A stretch of 64,000 nt of DNA from Acanthacorydalis orientalis (Eukaryota > Arthropoda > Insecta > Megaloptera > Corydalidae): NCBI GenBank assembly GCA_034766995.1, contig CM068325.1:8260116-8324115 (forward strand). Direction: 5' to 3'. Below the pieces are notes generated by a model that searched no databases, was not told the DNA's origin, and saw only the letters and a list, made by a program, of their open reading frames with translations. The stretch's first letter is position 1. Each line of letters begins with the position of its first letter. Of this stretch, positions 12,096-48,205 are shown in pieces. The translations under genes were made by a program, and so were the position numbers.

Positions 12096-14270
12096 TGGAA
12101 TCGGCGCGTACCATTAAGTGGCACGACGTCGAGCCGAGCGCGGTGGATAAAATGGTACTCGCAGAACCGCGTGTACTTTCCTTTCAGCAGAAAGTGGTTG
12201 GAGATCGATGTCTTTCCGGTTGTCTCGATCACCTTGCCTTGGTCGCGAAGGCCGACGAGGCGACGATGGTGGTATGCTCGGACGGCCGCTCTCAACGAAC
12301 GAAGTGCAAAGGCCCGCGACGCCTTCGGAACCACCACACGATCCGGCACCTGTCCAGGGTGGCCGATGACGACCGACATGTCCTCTGTGACGTCGGACCA
12401 CCGGAAGCTTACATCCAGCTTGGCTCTGAGGCCGCGGCAGGCGCTTCGAGCCTGGGTCCATAGGCTCGAAACATCCCCACCGTCACGCCCCAGAGCACCC
12501 TCCAGTGACCCGCTCAGGTACGCCGCCAGCATAAAGTTGTCGGGCTCGCCTCCAATCTTCTGCCCCGCTGCACGCCGAAGACCGGCCCAAGCCACCATCC
12601 TGACCACTTCGTCTGGGCAGGACAGTAGACAGAAAGCGTGCACCACCCGGCTCACGTCCGCGGAGTCGCCGAGTTGGAGCAAGTTAGCATCCCCCTGGTA
12701 TGATGTTATATACAGAATATCCGCGGAGGTCCTCTGCAGTAGGTTCATCCATTTCTTCGCCTTGCTTCTAATTATCTTATCAAGCTCCGTGAGGGGACCC
12801 TTTCGGATATTGCACCCACGGAGCGCGAAGTCAAGACAGGAGAGGATGAACATGTTGAGGGCCTCTAGTTTTTGCCAGGGGGCCAGGAGGGAGTGGTGTA
12901 ACCGCATAACGTCCCCCCTAATGTTATTGATAGTTTGTAGGGGGGTCTGGGTTACGCGGAACCCAGTGGGTACACCTAGATGTTCATAGTGTTCTCCCTC
13001 CTGCAGAGCTTCCAACCGGTCTCCCAGGAGCGTGAAGCGGGTGTCGCACGCTTTCCTCTTGCGCCGGCAATCGACGTGAAGCGAGGCGCATTTGGAGGCG
13101 TTGAACTTGATACCCATCCAGCCGGCGGATGCGCCTACCTCGTCCAGCAAAGATTGCATGGACGAGGGGTCCTTGGCGAGGAGCACCACGTTGTCGGCGT
13201 ACGCCAGGATCGAGAAGTGATGATCGAATGGTTAGTAACCGTGCGACCCGGACATACTGAGGGCCGCCCTCACCAGTGGCTCGATGGCCAAGTTGAATAG
13301 CATTGGGGAGAGTGGGCAGGCTTGCTTTACCCCGGCACGGATCGGAATCGGCTGGATCTCCCCAGTCGATGTCTGAACCGTGATAAAAGCCCGGGACTAA
13401 AGTTCGGCAACCACACCCTGTAGCTTCCTGGGCAAATTCAACAGGGAAAGCACCCGCCGTATGTGGCCGTGAGGAACAGACCCGAACGCGTTGGCAAAGT
13501 CGAGCCATGCCAACACGATCTGTCTGCCCTCATGACGTGCGTCAACAAGGGCGCTCTGGACCACGAAGTTGTGTTCGTAACACCCCTCGTGCTCCAGGAA
13601 CCCTTTCTGCACTGGCGAAATGTTCCCCGTTGTCTTCGCCCACGAAGTCACCCTGTCAGCCAGGACCCCAGCATACAACTTAGACATCACGCCACCGAGC
13701 GTGAGCGGCCTCCAGTTGTCCAGATCCTCTCGGCCACCCTTTTTGTGCACGAGCACCGTCCGGGCGTCGGCCCACGCCAGTGGGGTCCGCTCCTCGTGAA
13801 AGCAGCGATTGAAAATATATGTGAGTACAACGCACCCAGGGTCGAGACGTTTCCAGAAAGAATATTTAATTCCGTCTCTTTCCGGGGCGGTGTCCTTCGT
13901 CCGGGCCAGCCTGCAAAGTATCGATTCCGCCGAGAATTCTTCAACGAAGGAATCCTCGGCCACGTCGCACTGCGGGCTGTTAAACGTCTGTCGAACGAGA
14001 TCGGGCATCTCCACCTCCTCCCGGTCCCGTTCGGCAAACATCCCACGGAAGTGTCCTCGACCACCGCCGTGGGCGCCTCGCAGTACGGCCTGCCGTTCTC
14101 TGAACGGAGAATCTGCAGCACCATTGCCTTTCGCTTGTTGACCCGGTACAGTTTTTGAATTTTCGCTGCCTCCACGGGGTCGAAGTTTGGAACCTCGTTT
14201 ACCGGTCGCCGACGCTCCCGACGAACAGGTCTTGCGTTCGGGAAGCGTCGGTGCCGTGGACCGACGATTT
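12096..14270 (-). pseudogene. R2-like non-LTR retrotransposon fragment
   Basis: Read on the minus strand from 14,270. The N-proximal block has KIQKLYRVNKRKAM. The RT block follows with GIKYSFWKRLDP, LVHKKGG, WRPLTL and LDFANAFGSVPHG. After frame breaks near 13,390 and 13,215 the palm motif reads LAYADNVVLLAKD (YADN rather than YADD). The thumb and C-terminal block (12,100-13,189) ends RFCEYHFIHRARLD, VVPLNGTRR, as in R2-clade RTs just before their CCHC and nuclease domains. Those domains and the 3' UTR are missing, cut at the junction with P-like exon sequence at 12,095. The 5' zinc fingers are also missing. It is not in 28S rDNA, so it is a displaced, dead fragment. Antisense frames here are shadows. 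Confidence 0.8.
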
Positions 14271-15755: not shown

Positions 15756-18407
15756 CTACCGCGCCTTCGGTAGAGGCTCGATGGTGCGCTTAACATACAC
15801 GCTGGTATGCTTGGCGCACCTCTTGATGTGGTTACGGTGTAGGTCGTCCACGTGGTCAGCAATGCGCTCGAGTTTGCACAGGCGGTGCAGCTCAGCGATG
15901 GGAGTGTCTGCTGGGGATCCAGTGATCTGCCGCAGGCAGTGATTCTGGAGGACTTGAAGTTTCCTCCAGGTGGTCTTGCAAACTGACAGCCATACCGGGG
16001 CAGCGTAAAGGAGGGTGGAGCGAATGCAGGCCTTATAGACGTGGATTTTGGCCGCAAGCGGGATGTTCACGGATCTCAGGATGCTGGATAACTGGAATTT
16101 TGCTGCTCTCGCCTTGGCCAGTCTGTCGTTGGCGGCGGCGGAGAAGGTGAGTTTGTGATCCAGGAGGAGGCCGAGGTAGCGTAGTCTGTTCGACGTGCGG
16201 ACGACCTCTCCCTGGAATTTGATGCCGAGAGGCGGAGCGTAGCCTGTTGAGAAGACTATCGCCTCGGTCTTGGAGCCGTTGACGCGGATCTTGTTTTTAT
16301 TGAAGTAGGCGCTCGTTTGGGCGAGAGCAGTCTCCATGCTACGCAGAGAGGTAGCCACGGAGTTTTTGAGGGAAGAGGTGAACAGGGCGGTGTCGTCAGC
16401 GTAGAAGGCCCTGTTAATGGAAGTTCGGAGCTTCGGGAAGTCATGGATATAGAATGTGAACAGGAGTGGGCCCAGGACACTGCCCTGGGGTACTCCTGCT
16501 GGAATCGGAATGAGGTCGGAACGAGACCCATCTGAGTCGACGTACAACTGACGCTGGTTCAGGTAGGAATGGATCGTTTTGACTAGGTAGGTCGGGACTA
16601 GTCGTTGGTCAAGCTTCCACACAAGGTGGTCAAGCCAGACCGAGTCGAAAGCTTTCTCGATGTCAAGCGAGACAAGCAGTGTGGGGCGTCTGCGTTTCAG
16701 GTCAACAGTTACATGTCTGGTGATCCTGGCAAGTTGGTGGGTTGTTGAGTGTTTTTTCCTAAACCCAAATTGTTCAGGAGGGATGATATTAAAGGCATCC
16801 AGGTAACTCTGGATGCGGGAGTGAATGGTGCGCTCGTAAAGTTTACTGAGGGCAGGTAGGAGGCTGATTGGCCGGTAGCTGGAGGGGTTGGATTTAGGCT
16901 TACCGGGCTTGGGGATGGGTATGACCTTGGCAGTCTTCCAGTGCTGCGGGAAGTGATTAAGGTCCATGGCGACGTTGAAGACGCGCACCAGGTACGAGAT
17001 GGCGAGGCGGGGAAGGTTCCTCACCATCTGATTTGCAATGCCGTCCTGGCCTGGCGACTTGCGATTTTTCAACGCTTTGATGAGCCCACTCAGCTCAGCG
17101 TTGGTCGTCGGCGTTGCACACGGCGACGGGGGCAGTGCAGCCAACTTGGCTACGGCAGCAGTGACTTTACGGTCATGGGAGGGATTCCCCAGGTGTTGGG
17201 ATATGGTGTGGGCATTGGCGAAGGCCCGGGCAATGGCCTCGGCTCTCCCGGCTTGTGTGGAAACAACACCCTGGTCGGTGATGAGTGCGGTGGGAGGGTC
17301 CCGATGGGTCCGCAGTCTCCTGACCAGAGGCCAGACAGTGTTGTTATTGTCCTGAAGGACCTTCAGGGCGTGCTGCTCCCATTGAGCGGAGCGATCGGCC
17401 TTAATGGCCTCGGAGATTAACTTGGAGAGCCGGTTCAATTCGGTCTTGTGGCGCGGATCCCGAGTGGCTTTCCATTGTTTCCTGGCGCGATATCGAGAAC
17501 TTATGAGGTCCTTGATTTCGCGCGAGGGCCGATATTGATTTGATGGTGGTCTACGCACCTTCGGGATGTGCAGGTCCGCCGCCTGCTTCATGGATTTCTC
17601 CAGAGTGCTGACGCAACTGTCGACATCGGCAGTGGTCAGCAGCTCTCCCGGAAGGCAGATCGACTGGTTGAGCGAGCTTTTGAAGCCCTTCCAGTCTGCC
17701 TGGCTGAAGTCGTACGTAGGTTTCAACCTAGTAGCCATTTTGCACATCCGGTCAATGGTGATGAGAACCGGGATGTGGTCGGAGCTCGGGCCTTCGACGG
17801 TTTGAAGGGTGAGGGGGTGATTTTCTAGGTTCCTTACGAGCGCAAGGTCGATGGTTGAGGGGTTTTGGTCCGGACGGTCGGGGTAGTGGGTGTGGTCCGG
17901 AGGGTAATGCAGGATCAATGGAGTCAGCGTCTCGTCCAGAAACTTGAATAGTTTGCGGCCATTGTCGTTAATGGAGAGACAGTTCCAGGAGAGGTGGGTA
18001 GCATTGAAGTCACCTACAATGCACGTGGGGGTGTCCTGGGAGGCAAGTATGTCCAGGTGGTGGGTGTCAAGTTTGGTAACGTACAGTCCGGTTATTTTGA
18101 GTCGGGGTCTGCCGTCTATCTGGACATTGATATGTTCGGTAGAGATGTCCGAGTCAGGGAATCGTACGTGCGGGATGTCGCGTTTGACTAGCATGACTAG
18201 TCCTCCGCCCCGCGTGGGTCGGTCACGTCGGTGTACGTGGTAGTTCGGTATGCGTAGGGCATACCTAGCGGAGAGGTTGGTTTCTGTAATGACGGCAACG
18301 TCGGCGTCATGGAAGGAGAGGAGTTGTAGCAGGTCGGGCTTCTTGTTAAGAATGCCCCCCTGGATGTTGAAATTAATTATTTTTAGTTGGGGGGTGAAGG
18401 TGGCGGC
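15756..18407 (-). CDS. LINE ORF2: endonuclease and reverse transcriptase
   Basis: Makes the nick and the cDNA of target-primed reverse transcription. In order: APE-type endonuclease starting immediately after the ORF1 stop (LKIINFNIQGG, then ITETN, VGDFNATHLSWN, DLALV, SSDHIPVLITI); RT with SPGQDGI, SYRPISLLPALSKLYER, FGFRKKHSTTHQLA, LDIEKAFDSVW, GVPQGSVLGPLLF, FYADDTALF and LRYLGLLLD; and a C-terminal region with YAAPVW and LQVLQNHCLRQITG typical of the Jockey clade. The first ATG in frame is at 18,194, well inside the endonuclease, so translation must begin another way (see findings). About 883 residues counted from the stop; all catalytic motifs seen look intact. Confidence 0.9.
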   Translation of the reverse strand, partial: AATFTPQLKIINFNIQGGILNKKPDLLQLLSFHDADVAVITETNLSARYALRIPNYHVHRRDRPTRGGGLVMLVKRDIPHVRFPDSDISTEHINVQIDGRPRLKITGLYVTKLDTHHLDILASQDTPTCIVGDFNATHLSWNCLSINDNGRKLFKFLDETLTPLILHYPPDHTHYPDRPDQNPSTIDLALVRNLENHPLTLQTVEGPSSDHIPVLITIDRMCKMATRLKPTYDFSQADWKGFKSSLNQSICLPGELLTTADVDSCVSTLEKSMKQAADLHIPKVRRPPSNQYRPSREIKDLISSRYRARKQWKATRDPRHKTELNRLSKLISEAIKADRSAQWEQHALKVLQDNNNTVWPLVRRLRTHRDPPTALITDQGVVSTQAGRAEAIARAFANAHTISQHLGNPSHDRKVTAAVAKLAALPPSPCATPTTNAELSGLIKALKNRKSPGQDGIANQMVRNLPRLAISYLVRVFNVAMDLNHFPQHWKTAKVIPIPKPGKPKSNPSSYRPISLLPALSKLYERTIHSRIQSYLDAFNIIPPEQFGFRKKHSTTHQLARITRHVTVDLKRRRPTLLVSLDIEKAFDSVWLDHLVWKLDQRLVPTYLVKTIHSYLNQRQLYVDSDGSRSDLIPIPAGVPQGSVLGPLLFTFYIHDFPKLRTSINRAFYADDTALFTSSLKNSVATSLRSMETALAQTSAYFNKNKIRVNGSKTEAIVFSTGYAPPLGIKFQGEVVRTSNRLRYLGLLLDHKLTFSAAANDRLAKARAAKFQLSSILRSVNIPLAAKIHVYKACIRSTLLYAAPVWLSVCKTTWRKLQVLQNHCLRQITGSPADTPIAELHRLCKLERIADHVDDLHRNHIKRCAKHTSVYVKRTIEPLPKAR

Positions 18408-24335: not shown

Positions 24336-24488
24336 ACCCTGACTGCGTAATTTTTTTGTAAAAATAGTGAAAGCGTGAAAACGGCGCAAAAATCTCTGTG
24401 CATCGGTGTGGTCGCCATATTTTTACGAGCAGAATCGTGTTCGCGTACGCATTTTTTTTTGCGAAGAAGCATAGTAAATTACGCGAAA

Positions 24489-27400
24489 ATGGCGGAAGAT
24501 TTTTCGGTGAGACAAATAAGGAGGTTCGACGGGTCAAATTTTCAGGCGTGGAAGTTTCAAATCACCGCCGTCCTTATGGCGAATGATTTATACGACATCG
24601 TGGATGGATCGCGTGTCAAGCCAGCGAACCGAGAAGGTGGGAACGAGGCCCGGACAAAAACATGGATTCGAGATAACGCGAAAGCCATGGCGATCATCTC
24701 ATCGGCGATGGAGAGTAAAGAAATCGAGACGATACTCGTCTGTGTCACTGCAAAAGCCATTTGGGACAAACTCAGTCAAATTCACGAACAAAAATCGGAG
24801 TCGAATAAGCTCACACTTACGCAGCGATTTCACGAGTATCGCATGGACCCGACAGACTCAGTTGTTCAGCACGTGTCGAAGGTGCAGAATATGGCGCGAC
24901 AACTCACAGATCTAGGTGAGCATATCTCAGATCTAACAGTCATGGCAAAGATTTTAGCTAGTCTAACGACGAAGTATCGCTCCTTCACCACGGCTTGGGA
25001 AAGCGTTGACCCCGCGAGACAAACAGTTGAAAATTTGTCTGAGAGGCTAATTCGTGAAGAATCCAGGCTGAGCGCGGATAAGGAAGCCACAAGTGCGTTT
25101 TTTGTGACGAAGCAAAATGCGCCGAAAACAGATGGCAGGGACAAATACAGTAGTGATAAAGGGAAACGACGCCCGAAGAAGAGTATAGTGTGCTATCGGT
25201 GTCAAGCCAAAGGCCATTACGCAGCTACCTGTCCGACGAAAGACAAAGGTAAAAGTGTTCTAGGTCAAGGCGGTGGCGCATGCGCGTTCGTTGTAACGAC
25301 ATCCGCGAAAGACAAAAAGTTTCGAGAGGTGAGTCGATATAGTGAACCGACAATCGAAGAAGTAGATCGTTTGATGCGCGTCAAGACAAGCGACGTCTGG
25401 CTTACTGACAGTGGCGCATCTACTCACATAACTTTTCGGAAAGACTGGTTCGTCGAGTTTCGTCAAGTGCACGGTGAGACTGTCTCTCTAGGTGACAACG
25501 GTGAGTGCGCGATTGAAGGTGTCGGAACAATTAAGATCGAAAAACTTGTGAACGGTATATGGGTCGATGGCGTGATCGAAAACGTATTCTATGTGCCAGG
25601 TGTCCGAAAGAATTTGTTTTCAGTCGGGGTTTGCACTGTTAAAAGCTACGACGTGAAGTTCGAGGGTACCAGTGTAAAAGTCGAACGCGACGGGCAAGTC
25701 TTAGCCATTGGCGCGAGACAGTCAAATCAAATCTTTCGAATGTTTTTCCGTGTTTCGCGTCCGCGTAATGAAGTAAATGTTTCAGAGACTAGTATCAAAG
25801 TGTGGCATGAGCGACTTGGGCACATCAATCAACGATCGCTGTGCGAGCTAGCGAGAAAAGGACTCATAGGTGGAGTGACCGTGAAGGATACTACAGAGTT
25901 TTTTTGTGAAGCGTGCCAGCTAGGAAAACTACACAAATTACCATTTAACAAACTAACTGTGAACGTAAGTAGAAAACCTGGAGAATTTGTCCACAGCGAT
26001 GTGTGCGGGCCTATGCAAACGCGATCTCTTGGCGGTGCAGAGTATTTCGTGATCTTCAAAGACCATGCTACAGCTTTTCGTCATGTGTTTTTCCTAAAGC
26101 ACAAAGCAGATGTTTTCGATCGATTCATGGAATACGATCGCATGCTCGTCAACAAATTTGATCAGACAATGACAACTCTCCGCGCTGACAATGGTGGTGA
26201 GTATTGCAGTAACAAGATGCGAGAATACCTGGCGTCACGGGGCATAAAGTTGGAGAACACGGCTCCATACACCCCCGCACAGAATGGAAGATCGGAACGC
26301 GACATTCGAACGATTATAGAATGTGCCAGAACAATGCTGCAGGCGAAGAACTTGCCTATAAATCTTTGGGCGGAAGCCGTGAACACAGCGGTTTACACCT
26401 TGAATCGAGCAGGACGGTCGAGCCCGGGCGGAAGCAACACACCATATGAGCTATGGAGGGGTAAAAAGCCGGATGTTGGTCACATGAGGATCTTCGGTTC
26501 GGTGGCCTACGCCCACACACCCAAGCAGTTCCTCAAGAAATTCGATGCGAGGTCGAAGAAGATGATTCTCGTCGGCTACCAGGGCGACTCGTCAAACTAC
26601 AGGCTGTACAATCGTGAAACAGGCGCTATTTCTGTTTCCAGAGATGTAGTTTTCGATGAGCGAGTGGGTAGGGAGGATCGAGAGGGGAGAGTAACAACGG
26701 AAGCAGAAATCCTATTACCGTCGCATCTGGAGACTGAGGAGGAAGCAGACGAAACACGAGGTGACAACGAGGTTGTAGAAGCAGCAGCGGAAATCAATAA
26801 TGTTCCTGTCGTCGAGGAAGACCAGCAGTCGAGAATCGAACCACGAGTCCTACGAGATCGGGGCTCTCTTCAGCGGCCTTCAGGGTATGAATTGAATTTG
26901 GTCGAATATAAAGTTCCTTCCACGTTCCAGGAAGCAGTAGTAGGACCAGACGCTCCGAGGTGGATCAAAGCAATCGAATCTGAGCTCGAAGCACATCAAA
27001 CAAACAAAACGTGGTCGATTGTACCAAGAGACGCGAAGAAGAAGACGATCGATTCGAAATGGGTCTTCAAATTGCTGCGAGACGAAAAAGGAAAGGTGTA
27101 TCGCTTCAAAGCTCGCCTATGTGCGCGAGGTTTCTTGCAGCGCGAAGGCATCGATTACACGGAGACATTTGCACCCGTAGTACGATACGACTCACTTCGA
27201 GTGCTCCTGGCGATCATCACTCACGACGACCTCGAAGCTGTGCAGTTCGACGTTCGCACGGCGTTCCTCTATGGAGATCTTCAGGAGGATATCCACATGG
27301 AAGCTCCTGAGGGCCTCGTCGTCAGCGATTGCGGTAACGTGGTGTGCAAACTTAATAAATCCCTGTACGGGTTAAAGCAAGCACCAAGGTGTTGGAACTT

Positions 27401-28469
27401 GAAGTTCTCCAGTTTCCTGCACAAATATAAACTCAAGGAGACCGACGCGGATAAATGCATATTTTTCGGATATTACAATGGATGCGAAATCTATTTGGCG
27501 CTTTTTGTTGATGACGGGATTATTGCAGCGAGGTCGACAGAAGTTCTCGAGTCAATCGTCACGTCGCTGCGCGAAACGTTCGAGATCACCCTGAGCGATT
27601 GTACTACCTTCGTTGGGTTACAAATCTGTCGCGACAGAATGAAGAAGACAATGTTCATCCATCAACAAGCGTATGCGAAACAAATAGTCGAAAAATATGG
27701 CATGAAAGATGCGAAAGGTGTGTCAGTTCCCGCAGATCCTCACACTGTGTTAAGTCCCGTTGAGTCAGATGATGAGGAAATCACAAATGTACCGTATCGA
27801 GAGGCGGTCGGGTCTTTAATGTTCCTAGCAATTGTGTCACGGCCTGATATTGCATACGCTGTCAATTCTGTAAGCAGGTTCTTAAATCGCCATAATATGG
27901 GTCATTGGCTAGCAGTAAAAAGAATATTTGCGTATCTGGTAAATAATATCGATGTAGGAATTGAATATCAAAAATTTGGTACGGAATCCAATTTATTGGG
28001 ATATTCGGACGCAGATTATGCGAGTTATTTGGCGACGCGAAGGTCTACGACTGGCTATGTATTCACTCTGGCAAACGGAGCAGTGACTTGGTCGTCACAG
28101 CGTCAAAAATCGGTGTCATTAAGTACCACCGAATCGGAATATGTAGCTGCTGCTAGTGCGGCAAAAGAAGCTGTATGGTTGCGAAATTTGTTAAGTGACA
28201 TCGGTCGTCATTGTAAATCAAGCACCGTACTTCATGTCGATAATCAGAGCGCTATTCGTCTGGCAAGGAATCCTCAGTTCCACCAGAGGTCAAAACACAT
28301 CGATATAAAGTATCATTTTGTCAGAGAAAAAGTAGAAGATCAAGAAATCGCTTTGAAGTATGTATCTACAGAGCATCAGCGTGCGGACATCTTTACCAAG
28401 GCATTATCGAAAAACTCGTTTTTAAGATTGCGCGAGAGTCTTGGATTGCACAAGATGGTCATCGAGTAA
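24489..28469 (+). CDS. gag-pol: Copia Gag-Pol polyprotein
   Basis: The ATG at 24,489 (MAEDFSVRQIRRFDGSNF) is preferred; an in-frame ATG at 24,375 adds 38 residues unlike copia Gag. Gag (UBN2 type) is followed by the zinc knuckle CYRCQAKGHYAATC (25,191-25,232); protease WLTDSGASTH (Asp codon 25,407); integrase HHCC zinc site (from 25,806) and catalytic D (HSD, 25,998), D (ADNGGEY, 26,187) and E (26,294); RT with FVDDG (about 27,504, FVDD in place of YVDD); and RNase H with YSDADYA and STTESEYVA (about 28,120). 1,326 residues, no stops. Gag and Pol are in one frame, as in copia, so the ratio is presumably set by splicing. Confidence 0.95.
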   Translation: MAEDFSVRQIRRFDGSNFQAWKFQITAVLMANDLYDIVDGSRVKPANREGGNEARTKTWIRDNAKAMAIISSAMESKEIETILVCVTAKAIWDKLSQIHEQKSESNKLTLTQRFHEYRMDPTDSVVQHVSKVQNMARQLTDLGEHISDLTVMAKILASLTTKYRSFTTAWESVDPARQTVENLSERLIREESRLSADKEATSAFFVTKQNAPKTDGRDKYSSDKGKRRPKKSIVCYRCQAKGHYAATCPTKDKGKSVLGQGGGACAFVVTTSAKDKKFREVSRYSEPTIEEVDRLMRVKTSDVWLTDSGASTHITFRKDWFVEFRQVHGETVSLGDNGECAIEGVGTIKIEKLVNGIWVDGVIENVFYVPGVRKNLFSVGVCTVKSYDVKFEGTSVKVERDGQVLAIGARQSNQIFRMFFRVSRPRNEVNVSETSIKVWHERLGHINQRSLCELARKGLIGGVTVKDTTEFFCEACQLGKLHKLPFNKLTVNVSRKPGEFVHSDVCGPMQTRSLGGAEYFVIFKDHATAFRHVFFLKHKADVFDRFMEYDRMLVNKFDQTMTTLRADNGGEYCSNKMREYLASRGIKLENTAPYTPAQNGRSERDIRTIIECARTMLQAKNLPINLWAEAVNTAVYTLNRAGRSSPGGSNTPYELWRGKKPDVGHMRIFGSVAYAHTPKQFLKKFDARSKKMILVGYQGDSSNYRLYNRETGAISVSRDVVFDERVGREDREGRVTTEAEILLPSHLETEEEADETRGDNEVVEAAAEINNVPVVEEDQQSRIEPRVLRDRGSLQRPSGYELNLVEYKVPSTFQEAVVGPDAPRWIKAIESELEAHQTNKTWSIVPRDAKKKTIDSKWVFKLLRDEKGKVYRFKARLCARGFLQREGIDYTETFAPVVRYDSLRVLLAIITHDDLEAVQFDVRTAFLYGDLQEDIHMEAPEGLVVSDCGNVVCKLNKSLYGLKQAPRCWNLKFSSFLHKYKLKETDADKCIFFGYYNGCEIYLALFVDDGIIAARSTEVLESIVTSLRETFEITLSDCTTFVGLQICRDRMKKTMFIHQQAYAKQIVEKYGMKDAKGVSVPADPHTVLSPVESDDEEITNVPYREAVGSLMFLAIVSRPDIAYAVNSVSRFLNRHNMGHWLAVKRIFAYLVNNIDVGIEYQKFGTESNLLGYSDADYASYLATRRSTTGYVFTLANGAVTWSSQRQKSVSLSTTESEYVAAASAAKEAVWLRNLLSDIGRHCKSSTVLHVDNQSAIRLARNPQFHQRSKHIDIKYHFVREKVEDQEIALKYVSTEHQRADIFTKALSKNSFLRLRESLGLHKMVIE

Positions 28470-41416: not shown

Positions 41417-44400
41417 CTACTCGACCGCTTCGATATTCGCTTCCGTTTCCGTACTCGCGAACTCGCGGAACGCGCTAGAACCGAACTCACGCGCGATGTC
41501 GAGAGGAGTCTTTCCGTTTTTATCACGAGCATCGATCGAAACGCCTTCCGTAACAAGCAGACGTGCGATTTCGGCCGTTTTTTCATTCTTGTTCTCCGCC
41601 AAGCAATGTAAGGCGGTCGAGTTTCCGTTATCGACCGCCTTGACGTCCGCTCTCGTTTCTACGATCAAGTACTCGCAGAGCGCGCGAGTTCCGGACGAGC
41701 AAGCGAGATGGAGAGCCGTCCTTCCGTCTTCGTCGCGAGCTTCGATCGAAACGCCTCCGGAAACCAGCGAACGTGCGACTCCGATGATATTTTCGTTCTC
41801 ATTATCTGCCAGAGAGTGTAAGGTCGTCCGGTTTCTGTTACTGACCGCCTTGATATCCGCGTTCACTTCCGCGATCAAATACTCACACAACGCGCGAGAG
41901 CCGAACGAGCAAGCGATATGGAGAGCCGTCCTTCCGTATTCGTCGCGAGCTTCGATAGAAACGCCTTCGGAAACCAGCGAACGTGCGACTTCGACCGTGT
42001 TGTCGTTTTTATTCTGTGCCAGATAATGTAAGGCAGTCCGGTTTCCGTTACCGACTGCCGTAACATCCGCTTTCATTTCTGCGATCAAATACTCGCAGAA
42101 CGCGCGAGTTCCGTACGCGCAAGCGATATGGAGAGCCGTCCTTCCGTATTCGTCGCGAGCTTCGATCGAAACGCCTTCGGAAATCAGCGATCGTGCGAGT
42201 TCGACCGTGTTTCCGTTCTGATTCTGTGCCAGATAATGCAAGGTAGTACAGTTTCTGTTATCGACCGCCTCGATATCGGCTTTCATTTCCGTGATCAAGC
42301 GCTCGCAGAACGCGCGAGATCCGTACGCGCAAGCGATATGAAGAGCCGTCCTTCCGTATTCGTCACGAGCTTCGACCGAAACGTCTCCGGAAACCAGCGA
42401 ACGTGCGACTCCGATCATGTTATCGTTTTTATTCTCCGCGAGACAATGCAAGGTAGTCGAGTTTCTGTTAGTGACCGCCTCGATATCCGCTCGCATTTCC
42501 GTGATCAAGCGCTCGCAGAACGCACGAGATCCGAACAAACAGGCAAAATGGAGAGCCGTCCTTCCGTTTTCGTCACGAGCTTCGATCGGAACGCCTTCGG
42601 AGATCAGCAGACGTGCGACTTCGAACATGTTTTCGTTGTTGTTCTCCGCCAGAGAGTGTAAGGTAGTACAGTTACTGTTATTGACCGCCTTAACGTCCGC
42701 TTTCATTTCCGTGATCAAGTACTCGCAGAGCGCGCGAGAGCCGTACGAGCAAGCGACGAGAAGAGGCGTACTTCCGTAGTCGTGACGAGCTTCGATCGAG
42801 AGGCCTTCGGAGATCAGCGAGCGTGCGACTTCGACCATGTTTTCGTTCTTGTTCTGCGCCAGATAATGTAACGCTGTCCAGTTTCTGTTATTGACCGCCT
42901 CGATATCCGCTCGCATTTCTGCGATCAAGTACTCGCAGAACGCGCGAGTGCCGGACGAGCAAGCGACGTGGAGAGCCGTTCTTCCGTTTTCGTCACGAGC
43001 TTCGATCGAAACGCCTTCGGACACCAGCGTACGTGCGATTTCGACCATGTTTTCGTTCTTATTCTCTGCCAGAGAGTGTAAGGTAGTCCAGTTACTGTTA
43101 TTGACCGCCTTAACGTCCGCTTTCATTTCCGTGATCAAGTACTCACAGAATGCGCGAGTGCCGTACGAGCAAGCGACGAGAAGAGGCGTACTTCCGTAGT
43201 CGTGACGAGCTTCGATCGACAGGCCTTTGGAGATCAACGAACGTGCGACTTCGACCACGTTGTCGTTCTTGTTCTGTGCCAGATAATGTAAGGCTGTCCA
43301 GTTTCTGTTATTGACCACCTCGATATCCGCTCGCATTTCCGTGATCAGGTACTCGCAGAACGCACGAGATCCGAATGAGCAAGCGATATGGAGAACCGTT
43401 CTTCCGTTTTCGTCACGAGCTTCGATCGAAACGCCTTCGGAAATCAGCAGACGTGCGACTTCGATCATGTTTTCGTTCGTGTTCTCCGCTAGAGAGTGCA
43501 AGGTAGTCCAGTTTTTGTTATTGACCGCCTTGACGTCCGCTTTCATTTCCGTGATCAAGCACTCGCAGAGCGCGCGAGAGCCGTACGAGCAAGCGACGAG
43601 AAGAGGCGTACTTCCGTAGTCGTGACGAGCTTCGATCGACAGGCCTTTGGAGATCAGCGAACGTGCGACTTCGACGACGTTTTCGTTCTTGTTCTGCGCC
43701 AGATAATGTAACGCTGTCCAGTTTCTGTTATTGACCGCCTCGATATCCGCTCGCATTTCTGTGATCAGGTACTCGCAGAACGCGCGAGATCCGAATCTGC
43801 AAGCGATATGGAGAGCCGTCCTTCCGTCTGCGTCACGAGCTTCGATCGAAACGCCTTCGGAAACCAGCAGACGTGCGACTTCGATCATGTTTTCGATCTT
43901 GTTCTCCGCCAGAGAGTGTAAAGTAGTACAGTTACTGTTGTTGACCGCCTTGACGTCCGCTTTCATCTCCATGATCAAGTACTCGCAGAGCGCGCGAGAG
44001 CCGTACGAGCAAGCGACGAGAAGAGGCGTACTTCCGTTGTCGTGACGAGCTTCGATCGAGACGCCTTTGGAGATCAGCGAACGTGCGACTTCGACCACGT
44101 CGTCGTTCTTGTTCTTCGCCAGATAATGTAACGCTGTCCAGTTTCTGTTAGTGACCGCCTCGATATCCGCTCGCATTTCTGTGATCAGGTACTCGCAGAG
44201 TGCGCGAGAACCGAATTCGCAGGCGATATGAAGCGGCGTTCTTCCGGATTCGTCACGAGCATCGATCGAAATGCCTCTAGATTTAAGTTCTTTTACAATT
44301 CCGATTTTCTGTTCATCGTGTGTTGCTACCAGCATGTGTAAAAGTGTTAGCTTGGAATTGTCGGTAACGAAAACATCTGCTTTGTTTGCATTTAACAGGC

Positions 44401-47400
44401 ACTCATAGACAGATTTCGATGCGCAATTGGCTGCATAATGAAGTGGAGTCCGACCTTCAATATTTCTAGTATTGACCAAATCCGTGTTTGCCAATAGTCG
44501 CACTATCTCCACCGATCCGTCTCGTTCCTCGGATATTCGTGCTAGTGAATGCAGAATGGTGTTCCCGTCATAGTCGTATTTATGACTTAAATTCACATTA
44601 GTTTCCGCCATTAGGTACTTTGTCAGAGACACGTGTCCGGAGATTGCTGCATAATACAACGGCGTCTTTTTGTCTTCGTCTATCGTGTTGATCAATTCGT
44701 CTCTGTGAGTTGCTTCCGTGTGCTCCATTAGGTTTCTGACTATTTCCTTATATCCGTTCTTCGATGCGTGAAGTAAGCACTGAATTTTGTCAGAAATGAA
44801 ATCAGTTATGTTTTCGTCGCTTTTCGTCAACAGCAAGTCTAGATTCTTCCACATCTGTGCGACGCATGCGTACTGCACTGGCGTGTATCCGAAGAAGTCG
44901 TCTCTTGCATTCATGTCGAACTCGCGTCGGAGCAACTGTTGAAAGATGTTGTTGAATTCATACGTGGCACATAAGTGAAGTGCATTTCGGCCGAATTTGT
45001 CGGTCGAGCTGACAAACGTACTGCTTTCTTCCTTGTCGATGGAATCATCGAACCGATCTTCATCGCAGTTCAATAAGATTTTGAATATTTTTGATGATGT
45101 TCGATCTTTAATGGAAAGACGGTCGAAAAAAAGCTTAAATGTTTTTCTTTCGGAATGAAACATGACTTTGGCGAGAAACTCTCTCGATTTTTCTCGATCG
45201 TCTTCGACGAGTTCGTGAAAGAACTCCGCAGCGAAATACTCCGCGAACATCTTATGCGTGTATTTGGGAATACCGTCGCGTACGGATTGAATCACGCCGG
45301 TCTTCTCGTCGCCGCTTTCGATTTCGGCCAAGAAACGTTTCAGCTGGCGTTTTTCTTTCTTATCTAGGATGCATTCGGAATCGTTTCTTTTTAAATTGTC
45401 CAAATCGATTTTATCTCCGAACAGCAGATATACACTCGCCAGTCTGTGATTTTCTTTAAACAGAATAAAACTATCCTCGAGATGTTTCCTTTCTAGCGGC
45501 GAAGCGGGATGAATGTATTGCTTTTTTTTCTCTTCGACGTATATTTTCCATTTCAGTAGCACGAATTCTTCGAAGAGTTCCAACACGTCGACGCGATTAG
45601 GTAACGGCGGATCGTCGCGTCCCTCGACGAAAACCTTATGTTCCTTCTCGAACACGTCGCCGATCAACCTGCATTCGAGCGGAGTGTTCATGAGTCGTTC
45701 GGATCTGTCGACGGTCGACGATTTCACCGAATCTATCAGCGCGTCGATGAATCTCGTCGAACGATCTCGATCGACGTCGCCGCTCGGATTCCATCGGTTC
45801 GTGAGAAACGACGCCATGTTTTCTTTATCGAACGGATCGAGCCGATAGCAGAGACGGTTGAATACGTCTTCGAGATATTCTTTTTCGTTCGGTCGCGACG
45901 TGAGGAACATTCTGAATCTCTCTTTTCGGTTCAGACTCGTGACGAGCTCGACGACGGCTCGCCTGTGATCCGGGGCGATCTCGTCGAACGCGTCGAACAG
46001 TATCGTGACTTCCGGCCACTCCGCGAAGAGACTCCTTTCGAACGCGCCGAAGCGTCGGCTGTCGGCGATGAATTCCGTGGCGGAATCGACGTCGAACGTC
46101 TTTCGATCTCCGAAGTCTTTCACGTGATCCGTCAGATTCACGTGCAATATCCACGCGTGACGATCTTCGTCCTCGATGAGATTCGACGCGAGTCGCGACA
46201 GCAACGTGCTCTTCCCCATTCCGGGGTCCGCGCATACGATGATTATATCGTCGTTCAGATCGGTCAACCGACGGTCGTCGAAGCGGTTCGTGATTCCTTC
46301 ACGTACGAAATCCCTGACGCGCCTGATCGATCGGGACGCCTTCCTCAGATAGAATCTCGTCTCGGAATGCTCGATCCACACGACGTTCTTCCCCGTGTAC
46401 GATTCGCAGAACCGTTTGAATTGTTCCTCCGGATTCCGTTCCGGTAATAAGAATATCACGTCGGCCTCGTCGTCGGCCTCGCCGTCGGTTTCGCCGGCGC
46501 CGTTGCTCTCGCGCTCGTCCCTTTTCGAATCGTCGAGCCGCGCGCCTCTGTTCGAGAAATCGTCTCGTCTCCGCACGGATTTTTCCTCGCGGAGTTCTCT
46601 TAACTGCGTCTCCGTCATCCCGCTGAAGACGTAGACGTCGTCCCTGTCGTTCAGTCCGAACCGAGCCATGTCGATTTCGTTTCCGTAGGTCACGCGTCTG
46701 TCGATATAAAAAGCGTCCGTCGATCTGAGCCTGTCCGCGGACGAGTCGATCTCGACCGGATCGGCCGATGTGACGAGCTTAAACAGAAAATCATTACCGA
46801 TGATGTGACGGATGTCCGGGCGAAACACTTGTTGCACTTTCCTACAACGTGTCTGAAACCGAATTTCTTTCTCCAAGAGTTCTTCTTGCTTCGATGGTAC
46901 GAGTTCAATAAATTTAAACTCATCGTCGATGCACTGCACATTATTTACAGTTAGAGATATGGATTTCGCGACGATTATGAACTTTATACGTTCCCAAGAC
47001 GGAATGTCGAGTGTTTTACACGAAAAACAAGCGATCACCAACACACGGATTTCATTTAATCGCAGATCGTTTATAAGTTTGTTTTTATCGTAAGTGATAA
47101 ACTCATCGTCGCCGATCAAGCGGAATGTTCCTTCTTCCAAGCACTGCGCCACTTTCACAAGTGAAAAGTCGACGCTGCAACGCGTCCTCACGTGACAAAC
47201 GTGTGCATTCTGCTCGAAAATATTCCTGAATTTCCGTAAACTTTCTTCGATGAATCGAACATCGTGCGTTCTAATTCGATTCAAATGGAATTCACTGAAG
47301 ACGTCCGACGGGTTCTTTATTTTTTCTTTAGCTTCAGTAAACCATTCCATGCATTTTCGTCTACCGACAAAATATCCTCGGGGATCGCACACCCACCTAG

Positions 47401-48178
47401 CGATGTTATTGTAAAGATCCTTGTATACGTTATCGACGTACTCTTCGTCGTCGACCCGAAGAAACTTTTTTATTTCGTCTTTAGTTTTTCGTTCGGCCTC
47501 TTCGTCGCAAAAATCAACACGGATCCGTAATTTACTAAAAAAATCTTCAGCATCGACCGATAAGTCGCCGTTCTCGTTCAAAACTTTTCCGCGAAGAGAG
47601 TGCTCGTATTTTAAAAAGTGTACGAGTACTTCGCGGCCTTTCTTGAACTTGTAAACTACCCCGATTTCTTCGTTACACTTCTCGAATATATTTTTATGGA
47701 GGTCATTACTGAAATCTAATCCGACATTTGTCATTAGAATGACCTCGACTATTTTACCTTCGTGTTTGTTTTCGAAATTTTTTGCTTTAATTTCCTTTTC
47801 AAACGAATCAAAGTACATATTTAGAGAATATCTCGAGTTTTTCGATTCTTTTTCGAATATCTTGTTGGAATTTATTTTCTTATTCTTACCGGATATGTGT
47901 TTAAGTTGGTATAATTTGTATTTCCATTCGTTATTTTCCACATAATGTAAGACAATGTCGTCGAATTTTCCAGCGTCATCCATTTCACACGCCAGACGAA
48001 AATTTTCAGAATTCGCATTCAGTTGCTTACACATGAGGTAAACGATGACTTTATACTGATAGTCACGGCCGTGGGAGCATATCTTGTCCCCTGAGGAAGT
48101 ATAACTATTTTCGAAAGGATCGACATTATGTTCGTCGGCTGATACGATGGAAACTTGATTGTTTGTTGAGGACGGCAT
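41417..48178 (-). CDS. NLR-like protein: possible nuclease, NACHT ATPase, ankyrin array
   Basis: 2,253 residues, single uninterrupted frame. Numbering is from an alternative ATG 31 codons upstream (48,271); ATG 48,178 is preferred because a splice acceptor lies at 48,189. About 70-270: YQYKVIVYLMCKQL, ACEMDDAGKFDDIVLHY and YKLYQLKHI (E96, D104/105, Q122-x-K124), the E...D...QxK pattern of PD-(D/E)XK enzymes such as Cap4/DUF4297 (inference). About 640-1,030: NACHT/STAND ATPase with Walker A ADPGMGKSTLL (~680), Walker B VTILFDAFDEI (~755), LTSRP (~789) and YTHKMFAEYFAAEFF (~1,003). About 1,090-1,330: irregular ankyrins. About 1,330 to the end: 13 units of 70 residues (two ankyrins each) and a half unit. 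Likely a cytoplasmic sensor of the NLR type; ligand unknown. High internal repeat identity, no stops, CpG-rich. Confidence 0.85.
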   Translation of the reverse strand: MPSSTNNQVSIVSADEHNVDPFENSYTSSGDKICSHGRDYQYKVIVYLMCKQLNANSENFRLACEMDDAGKFDDIVLHYVENNEWKYKLYQLKHISGKNKKINSNKIFEKESKNSRYSLNMYFDSFEKEIKAKNFENKHEGKIVEVILMTNVGLDFSNDLHKNIFEKCNEEIGVVYKFKKGREVLVHFLKYEHSLRGKVLNENGDLSVDAEDFFSKLRIRVDFCDEEAERKTKDEIKKFLRVDDEEYVDNVYKDLYNNIARWVCDPRGYFVGRRKCMEWFTEAKEKIKNPSDVFSEFHLNRIRTHDVRFIEESLRKFRNIFEQNAHVCHVRTRCSVDFSLVKVAQCLEEGTFRLIGDDEFITYDKNKLINDLRLNEIRVLVIACFSCKTLDIPSWERIKFIIVAKSISLTVNNVQCIDDEFKFIELVPSKQEELLEKEIRFQTRCRKVQQVFRPDIRHIIGNDFLFKLVTSADPVEIDSSADRLRSTDAFYIDRRVTYGNEIDMARFGLNDRDDVYVFSGMTETQLRELREEKSVRRRDDFSNRGARLDDSKRDERESNGAGETDGEADDEADVIFLLPERNPEEQFKRFCESYTGKNVVWIEHSETRFYLRKASRSIRRVRDFVREGITNRFDDRRLTDLNDDIIIVCADPGMGKSTLLSRLASNLIEDEDRHAWILHVNLTDHVKDFGDRKTFDVDSATEFIADSRRFGAFERSLFAEWPEVTILFDAFDEIAPDHRRAVVELVTSLNRKERFRMFLTSRPNEKEYLEDVFNRLCYRLDPFDKENMASFLTNRWNPSGDVDRDRSTRFIDALIDSVKSSTVDRSERLMNTPLECRLIGDVFEKEHKVFVEGRDDPPLPNRVDVLELFEEFVLLKWKIYVEEKKKQYIHPASPLERKHLEDSFILFKENHRLASVYLLFGDKIDLDNLKRNDSECILDKKEKRQLKRFLAEIESGDEKTGVIQSVRDGIPKYTHKMFAEYFAAEFFHELVEDDREKSREFLAKVMFHSERKTFKLFFDRLSIKDRTSSKIFKILLNCDEDRFDDSIDKEESSTFVSSTDKFGRNALHLCATYEFNNIFQQLLRREFDMNARDDFFGYTPVQYACVAQMWKNLDLLLTKSDENITDFISDKIQCLLHASKNGYKEIVRNLMEHTEATHRDELINTIDEDKKTPLYYAAISGHVSLTKYLMAETNVNLSHKYDYDGNTILHSLARISEERDGSVEIVRLLANTDLVNTRNIEGRTPLHYAANCASKSVYECLLNANKADVFVTDNSKLTLLHMLVATHDEQKIGIVKELKSRGISIDARDESGRTPLHIACEFGSRALCEYLITEMRADIEAVTNRNWTALHYLAKNKNDDVVEVARSLISKGVSIEARHDNGSTPLLVACSYGSRALCEYLIMEMKADVKAVNNSNCTTLHSLAENKIENMIEVARLLVSEGVSIEARDADGRTALHIACRFGSRAFCEYLITEMRADIEAVNNRNWTALHYLAQNKNENVVEVARSLISKGLSIEARHDYGSTPLLVACSYGSRALCECLITEMKADVKAVNNKNWTTLHSLAENTNENMIEVARLLISEGVSIEARDENGRTVLHIACSFGSRAFCEYLITEMRADIEVVNNRNWTALHYLAQNKNDNVVEVARSLISKGLSIEARHDYGSTPLLVACSYGTRAFCEYLITEMKADVKAVNNSNWTTLHSLAENKNENMVEIARTLVSEGVSIEARDENGRTALHVACSSGTRAFCEYLIAEMRADIEAVNNRNWTALHYLAQNKNENMVEVARSLISEGLSIEARHDYGSTPLLVACSYGSRALCEYLITEMKADVKAVNNSNCTTLHSLAENNNENMFEVARLLISEGVPIEARDENGRTALHFACLFGSRAFCERLITEMRADIEAVTNRNSTTLHCLAENKNDNMIGVARSLVSGDVSVEARDEYGRTALHIACAYGSRAFCERLITEMKADIEAVDNRNCTTLHYLAQNQNGNTVELARSLISEGVSIEARDEYGRTALHIACAYGTRAFCEYLIAEMKADVTAVGNGNRTALHYLAQNKNDNTVEVARSLVSEGVSIEARDEYGRTALHIACSFGSRALCEYLIAEVNADIKAVSNRNRTTLHSLADNENENIIGVARSLVSGGVSIEARDEDGRTALHLACSSGTRALCEYLIVETRADVKAVDNGNSTALHCLAENKNEKTAEIARLLVTEGVSIDARDKNGKTPLDIAREFGSSAFREFASTETEANIEAVE

Positions 48179-48184
48179 CGTCGC

Positions 48185-48205
48185 ATGTCTGCAAAAAAAG
48201 AACAG
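48185..48205 (-). promoter_or_regulatory. Probable 3' splice site upstream of the NLR gene start
   Basis: Minus strand reads TGTTCTTTTTTTGCAG then ACATGCGACG and ATG (48,178). The pyrimidine run and CAG form a strong acceptor, so the coding exon probably starts at 48,188 with a 5' UTR exon upstream that I cannot place. Confidence 0.6.

Follow-up and report, generated by a model that had tools for sequence, protein, structure and literature searches.

An expanded insect gene family joins a predicted LmuA/Cap4-type nuclease domain to a NACHT ATPase and a variable ankyrin array

Introduction

In bacterial Avs proteins, which recognise viral proteins and have sensors of the tetratricopeptide repeat (TPR) type, the STAND receptor carries a nuclease effector directly; the usual view of animal NLRs is that adaptors relay their signal. 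The nucleases of Lamassu, Hachiman and CBASS have other partners, namely an SMC protein (the SMC-like LmuB, encoded in the LmuA operon), a helicase and a CD-NTase, respectively. Here we analyse a stretch of 64,000 nucleotides from the megalopteran Acanthacorydalis orientalis (assembly GCA_034766995.1, contig CM068325.1, hereafter C13, positions 8,260,116 to 8,324,115 of the forward strand), referred to as the window, and a gene on its minus strand that encodes a NACHT-class STAND protein, P0001. With moderate confidence, we read P0001 as a self-contained, Avs-like STAND receptor and effector that would cleave nucleic acid when triggered, and as a member of a divergent, expanded insect family.

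Passages of Anantharaman 2013 (PMC3710099) describe the HEPN-NACHT proteins, in which an animal NACHT ATPase is fused to a domain of RNase type. An N-terminal domain common to phage WO and arthropods, that of gwv_1093, was reported by Bordenstein and Bordenstein 2016 (PMC5062602); the main text of that article contains no word starting with 'nuclease', and its passages on gwv_1093 put forward no enzymatic function for the N terminus. Among the open-licence papers listed in our literature searches, none is described as reporting an insect STAND protein that carries a nuclease of the Cap4 or LmuA type.

Coding frame and domain layout

The gene occupies positions 41417-48178 of the window as a single stop-free frame of 2,253 amino acids on the minus strand, to which all coordinates in this section refer. 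A sequence-only reading of the window had described such a frame, with STAND motifs followed by ankyrins; translation with zero stops, the motif positions and the Pfam matches to NACHT and Ank_2 bear this out. P0001 contains the elements of a NACHT-class STAND protein or NLR: a Walker A motif (GMGKST, residues 653-658), a Walker B motif of the form D-x-x-D-E (FDAFDE, 728-733), a TSRP motif (LTSRP, 759-763), part of the C-terminal STAND module (MFAEYFAAEFF, 977-987; 45218-45250), which is conserved in the homologue P0002, and a C-terminal repeat sensor, here of ankyrins. The NACHT core (residues 646-792; 45803-46243) matches Pfam with 29.1 bits at a cut-off of 26.7, and the ankyrin region (residues 1063-2253; 41417-44992), recognised by Pfam and by tandem-repeat analysis, gives an Ank_2 E-value of 6.2e-163. 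The first 600 residues have no Pfam match above the cut-off; they comprise the nuclease-like domain (residues 30-170; 47669-48091), recognised by profile and model comparisons, and a middle region (residues 171-600; 46379-47668). A chance open frame was ruled out, as 17 additional copies are stop-free across the first 1,060 codons.

Upstream, the frame extends to a further ATG, which would give 2,284 amino acids. A pyrimidine tract followed by cag, 10 nt upstream of the P0001 ATG (48189-48200), is kept in all 21 copies examined, the window copy included, and is read as a candidate 3' splice site. As this site sits just before the ATG and is kept in every copy examined, the 2,253-residue product appears likelier than the longer one, and the coding part is probably one large exon behind an upstream non-coding exon.

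The N-terminal domain resembles PD-(D/E)XK nucleases

The sequence-only reading had also suggested a PD-(D/E)XK nuclease at the N terminus, with E96, D104-105, Q122 and K124 as active-site residues. The residues are present, but the numbers belong to the 2,284-residue frame; in the 2,253-residue protein they are E65, D73-D74, Q91 and K93. The predicted active site spans window positions 47900-47986 on the minus strand (E65 at 47984-47986, D74 at 47957-47959, Q91 at 47906-47908 and K93 at 47900-47902) and shows the E/D...D...(E/Q)xK arrangement of the PD-(D/E)XK superfamily. E65, D74, Q91 and K93 are conserved in all 48 family loci fetched from this genome, a selection of mostly open frames from 102 merged places that leaves most stop-bearing fragments outside. 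Among the homologues from outside the genome, D73, D74, Q91 and K93 are found in 21 of 21 and E65 in 20, with P0022 lacking it. D73, the first aspartate of FDD, was rejected as the key residue: it is replaced by asparagine in one of the 48 loci, whereas D74 is invariant.

A predicted model of P0001 residues 26-292 has a mean predicted local distance difference test score (pLDDT) of 62, with ten-residue blocks of residues 11-130 at 61-89, and that of the homologue P0003 has a mean of 76. Both models show the order helix-strand-strand-strand-helix-strand, with the aspartate just ahead of strand 2 and QxK within strand 3; this is the alpha-beta-beta-beta-alpha-beta core of the PD-(D/E)XK nuclease superfamily, whose characteristic activity is cleavage of phosphodiester bonds in dependence on metal. 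On realignment of the two models to the Protein Data Bank (PDB), Cap4, LmuA and Avs3 were within the first eight rows of each list, many of whose entries were classed by the fold that we presume them to have.

Profile comparisons point to the same group of nucleases. The domain of P0001 matches the nuclease domain of LmuA with an E-value of 1.5e-9 (profile positions 22-129 of 370), though the LmuA model was not listed with a fragment shorter by 4 residues, nor at E <= 1 with the whole of P0001. A Cap4 model matched with an E-value of 5.6e-6, and HamA models match four of 15 family members (best E 1e-6). P0001 was rejected as a Cap4 protein proper, as it has no SAVED domain: the match covers profile positions 10-124 of 483 (up to 126 if the domain is compared by itself), after which P0001 continues with NACHT and ankyrins. 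Taken together, the profile matches and predicted models support an LmuA/Cap4-type PD-(D/E)XK nuclease-like domain, presumably catalytic. The nuclease suggestion thus stands, with the fold seen in the predicted models and the E/D/QxK residues conserved.

Family expansion in the Acanthacorydalis genome

The locus had been treated as a single gene in the sequence-only reading; it in fact belongs to a large family that also has Rickettsiales relatives. In the genome (548 Mb in 27 contigs), all 124 domain candidates were scored, of which 123 matched. Compared with the window domain, 18 matches are 98-100% identical, 21 are 67-72% identical and 84 are distant (mostly 27-44%) or fragments. Merging of rows within 3 kb left the 102 places mentioned above, and in 65 of them a frame of 1,000 amino acids or more is open and shows no stop within the match. 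Of these long-frame loci, 43 lie on C13, a contig of 9.51 Mb that holds 1.7% of the bases and for which 1.1 loci were expected; this binomial enrichment assumes independent loci, and segmental duplication breaks that independence. Of the other long-frame loci, seven are within the final 8 Mb of C2 and five on C11, and family matches occur on ten contigs besides C13. Several deep lineages exist within the genome: locus L051 groups with outside proteins (support 97), and the clade of the window gene stands apart.

On C13, 48 of the 54 merged places are located at 0-3 Mb or 7-10 Mb and six between. C13 also carries an inverted segmental duplication, in which the window gene on the minus strand has its mate at C13:539936-546661 on the plus strand, with 99.8% identity over 3,180 coding bases. 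Further pairs occur in mirror order, C13:612387 (-) with C13:8236370 (+), and the fragments C13:586049 with C13:8261718. The latter fragment lies in the window at 1603-1788 on the plus strand (C13:8261718-8261903), is 85% identical to P0001 residues 231-292 and is a probable relict. C13 is possibly a sex-limited or extra chromosome. A telomere-like repeat run was not found in its terminal 500 bases; read by eye, the last 500 bases (L058) appear to encode an ankyrin-like stretch. A run of CCCTCA repeats (TGAGGG on the opposite strand) within the first 400 bases of contig 1 (L059) may be an unusual telomere motif. In seven copies (L016 and L019-L024) the 5' part of the gene occurs a second time, ~1 kb upstream of the main frame; this diverged duplicate is ~80% identical and spans the start codon.

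Selection and variation among copies

Over the first 1,060 codons, which are stop-free in the window gene and its 17 near copies, the pooled ratio of nonsynonymous to synonymous differences per site (pN/pS) is 0.26, uncorrected and taken over 153 related pairs. By region it is lowest in the nuclease (0.14), followed by residues 800-1060 (0.23), 171-600 (0.29) and 600-800 (0.39). Beyond this part the copies differ in length and repeat number, with frames from 1,151 (L028) to at least 2,681 amino acids (L010); reading ended at the first stop or where the fetched piece ended, the latter in L010. By eye, C-termini are shifted or cut in L009, L016, L020 and L028, for example.

The ankyrin part of P0001 contains ~30 repeat motifs by pattern count and consists of tandem 210-bp units (13.6 copies, 80% matches; a 420-bp period is also present), one unit corresponding to 70 amino acids or two ankyrin repeats. 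Unit counts per copy were obtained with a strict pattern and are lower bounds. Within P0001, 14 units differ with a pN/pS of 0.55, and at the 20 most variable unit positions pN (0.35) exceeds pS (0.27), which is only suggestive as these positions were chosen for their variability. A nuclease and motor that are kept while the sensor changes is the pattern expected of an immune receptor family.

These data bear on the idea that the window copy has no function and is one of many dead or dying duplicates that segmental duplication and transposons have scattered. Such decay would fit the fragments and the matches with stops among the 123, the C-termini that are shifted or cut short in some copies, and the retroelement frames within the window. 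Yet the window copy is entirely open, and the 18 copies with their pooled pN/pS of 0.26 make it highly improbable. Somewhat less improbable, though still hard to maintain, is that the nuclease-like domain lacks catalysis and serves as a scaffold, or as an oligomerisation or nucleic-acid-binding module. The structural scores are only moderate, as this would allow, but the four positions predicted to be catalytic do not vary even between divergent members, and pN/pS is lower in the nuclease than in the other three regions compared.

Some of the results nevertheless speak against an immune receptor with a nuclease effector. Structural Z scores are below 8 in both realignments, and Foldseek's own lists are headed by phage chimallin or MspJI, because of which the structure alone would not be decisive for the assignment of the fold. 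Turnover of a tandem-repeat array alone would also give the pattern of a kept motor and a changing sensor.

Relatives in insects and Rickettsiales

With the N-terminal 640 residues of P0001 as query one homologue was obtained, P0002, while the window domain alone (residues 26-170) gave none among 75 candidates at E <= 0.1. With P0002 as query, 21 of 64 candidates were accepted, P0002 itself included, with relatives in Nasonia vitripennis, Wasmannia auropunctata, Contarinia nasturtii, Anopheles sinensis and a Wolbachia of Kerria lacca; the last of these (P0006) sits on a 1.35-Mb contig. The domain is paired with different motors: NACHT and ankyrins in P0002 and others, and NB-ARC and TPR in P0006, P0012 and P0014. 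P0012, from Wasmannia auropunctata, also has a match to an Ulp1-type C48 protease and a YopJ-like match below the cut-off, N-terminal of its nuclease, NB-ARC and TPR.

A scan of GTDB with P0003 first gave two loci in Rickettsiales metagenome-assembled genomes (MAGs) from 204 stretches; with the window protein as confirming sequence it gave no relative, probably due to the divergence of P0001. In Candidatus Mesenet longicola, which we take to be an incompatibility inducer, a frame of 1,076 amino acids is colinear with P0001: residues 81-421 match P0001 26-347 (26% identity, E 1e-20) and residues 596-1075 match P0001 622-1096 (24% identity, E 3e-32), both within a set of 22 proteins, and its NACHT match (23.0 bits) is below the Pfam cut-off. 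In a Midichloriaceae bacterium the nuclease is in a 511-residue frame, followed by a 933-residue ATPase frame. Both contigs are short (~6.6 kb; GC content 0.30 and 0.36), and host contamination seems an unlikely source of them. A neighbour of L062, one of the two loci, has an ATPase_2 domain. IMG/VR scans gave no relative, and the phage and plasmid collections no match.

Alignments A2, A3 and A4 contained 18 (P0004, P0005, P0008 and P0016 dropped as near duplicates), 21 (without P0018) and all 22 of the 22 sequences, respectively. One tree, with the support of 97 given above, included seven in-genome rows, and another included 14, without L054. The bacterial branches in the former have bootstrap values of 10 and 31, too low to give a direction of transfer between insects and Rickettsiales. 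A recent transfer of the gene from a Rickettsiales symbiont, instead of an old insect gene, would explain the colinear Mesenet relative and the Wolbachia relatives of the domain. It would hardly explain that P0001 is so far from the bacterial proteins (24-26% identity to Mesenet), that the genome holds several deep lineages or that all 21 copies keep the candidate 3' splice site, and we give it very little credence.

The bacterial relatives also matter for a reading in terms of genetic conflict, in which the amplified nuclease receptors would serve a selfish system, be it chromosome drive or reproductive manipulation of the symbiont type, as its killers or modifiers, and not host immunity. Such a role is in line with the crowding of 43 of 65 long-frame loci on C13 and its inverted segmental duplication, and with homologues in the Wolbachia of Kerria lacca, in Mesenet longicola and in the Midichloriaceae bacterium; complexes of Wolbachia incompatibility factors also appear, low down, in the structural lists. 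However, it is at odds with the matches on ten further contigs and in deep lineages, with the relatives in Hymenoptera and Diptera, and with variable ankyrin arrays, which are more sensor-like. We therefore consider genetic conflict unlikely, and retain the reading of P0001 as a STAND receptor-effector.

Other features of the window

The window also contains retroelement frames: a Copia-type polyprotein of 1,364 amino acids with gag, integrase and reverse transcriptase domains (24375-28469, plus strand), a LINE-like reverse transcriptase frame with an endonuclease domain (15756-18194, minus strand) and a reverse transcriptase frame whose match is below the Pfam cut-off (13397-14041, minus strand).

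Proposed mechanism

For the family, the computations show its architecture and class of fold, the conservation of the active-site residues, purifying selection, expansion and variation of the arrays. The architecture and the conserved predicted active site favour the earlier proposal of a self-contained animal NLR with a nuclease effector. On the model of Avs, the long ankyrin array would keep the protein inactive until it senses a ligand or a disturbed host protein; the NACHT ATPase would then exchange nucleotide and oligomerise. Oligomerisation would gather the N-terminal LmuA/Cap4-type PD-(D/E)XK domains, whose cleavage of nucleic acid, with double-stranded DNA as the likeliest substrate, would destroy the genome of an invader or kill the cell. 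A related nuclease, that of DUF4297-HerA, degrades double-stranded DNA in dependence on its PD-(D/E)xK residues and was superimposed on the Cap4 domain of Avs3, according to passages of PMC11291478. The family consists of divergent insect genes with relatives in Rickettsiales symbionts, greatly expanded here, in which nuclease and ATPase are conserved and ankyrin arrays change. More tentatively, and with less than even confidence, we suggest that insects carry an Avs-like one-protein nuclease immunity: a fast-evolving family (65 long-frame loci) with ankyrin turnover, a fixed LmuA/Cap4-type nuclease and NACHT, and modules traded with Rickettsiales, in which the cluster of 43 loci on the 9.5-Mb contig would reflect an active arms race or drive-type conflict.

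Comparison with known systems

The domain of the family is probably the N-terminal domain of gwv_1093, judged by its description, with which P0006, from the Wolbachia of Kerria lacca, and P0014, from Nasonia, agree; the phage collection gave no match, and the phage WO sequence itself was not found there. With the nucleases of Lamassu (LmuA), CBASS (Cap4) and Hachiman (HamA) P0001 shares, by profile matches, the nuclease domain. HEPN-NACHT fusions likewise combine an animal NACHT ATPase with a nuclease-type domain, but the helical HEPN fold is unrelated to PD-(D/E)XK. Animal NLRs of the NACHT and leucine-rich repeat (LRR) type share the NACHT-class STAND ATPase and the C-terminal repeats; they have a CARD or PYD adaptor domain and LRRs where P0001 has a predicted enzyme and ankyrins. 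A PADLOC scan of P0001 gave no Avs-named model at E <= 1, although the HMMER filters may drop distant matches. With Avs proteins such as Avs3 (PDB 8dgc), P0001 shares the layout of an N-terminal effector, a central STAND ATPase and a C-terminal repeat sensor in one chain; it differs in its ankyrin sensor, in place of a TPR-type array, and in being a eukaryotic gene in a large family. If our reading is true, arthropods kept or regained a bacterial mode of immunity, and the domain described in 2016 as common to phage WO and arthropods would gain a mechanism.
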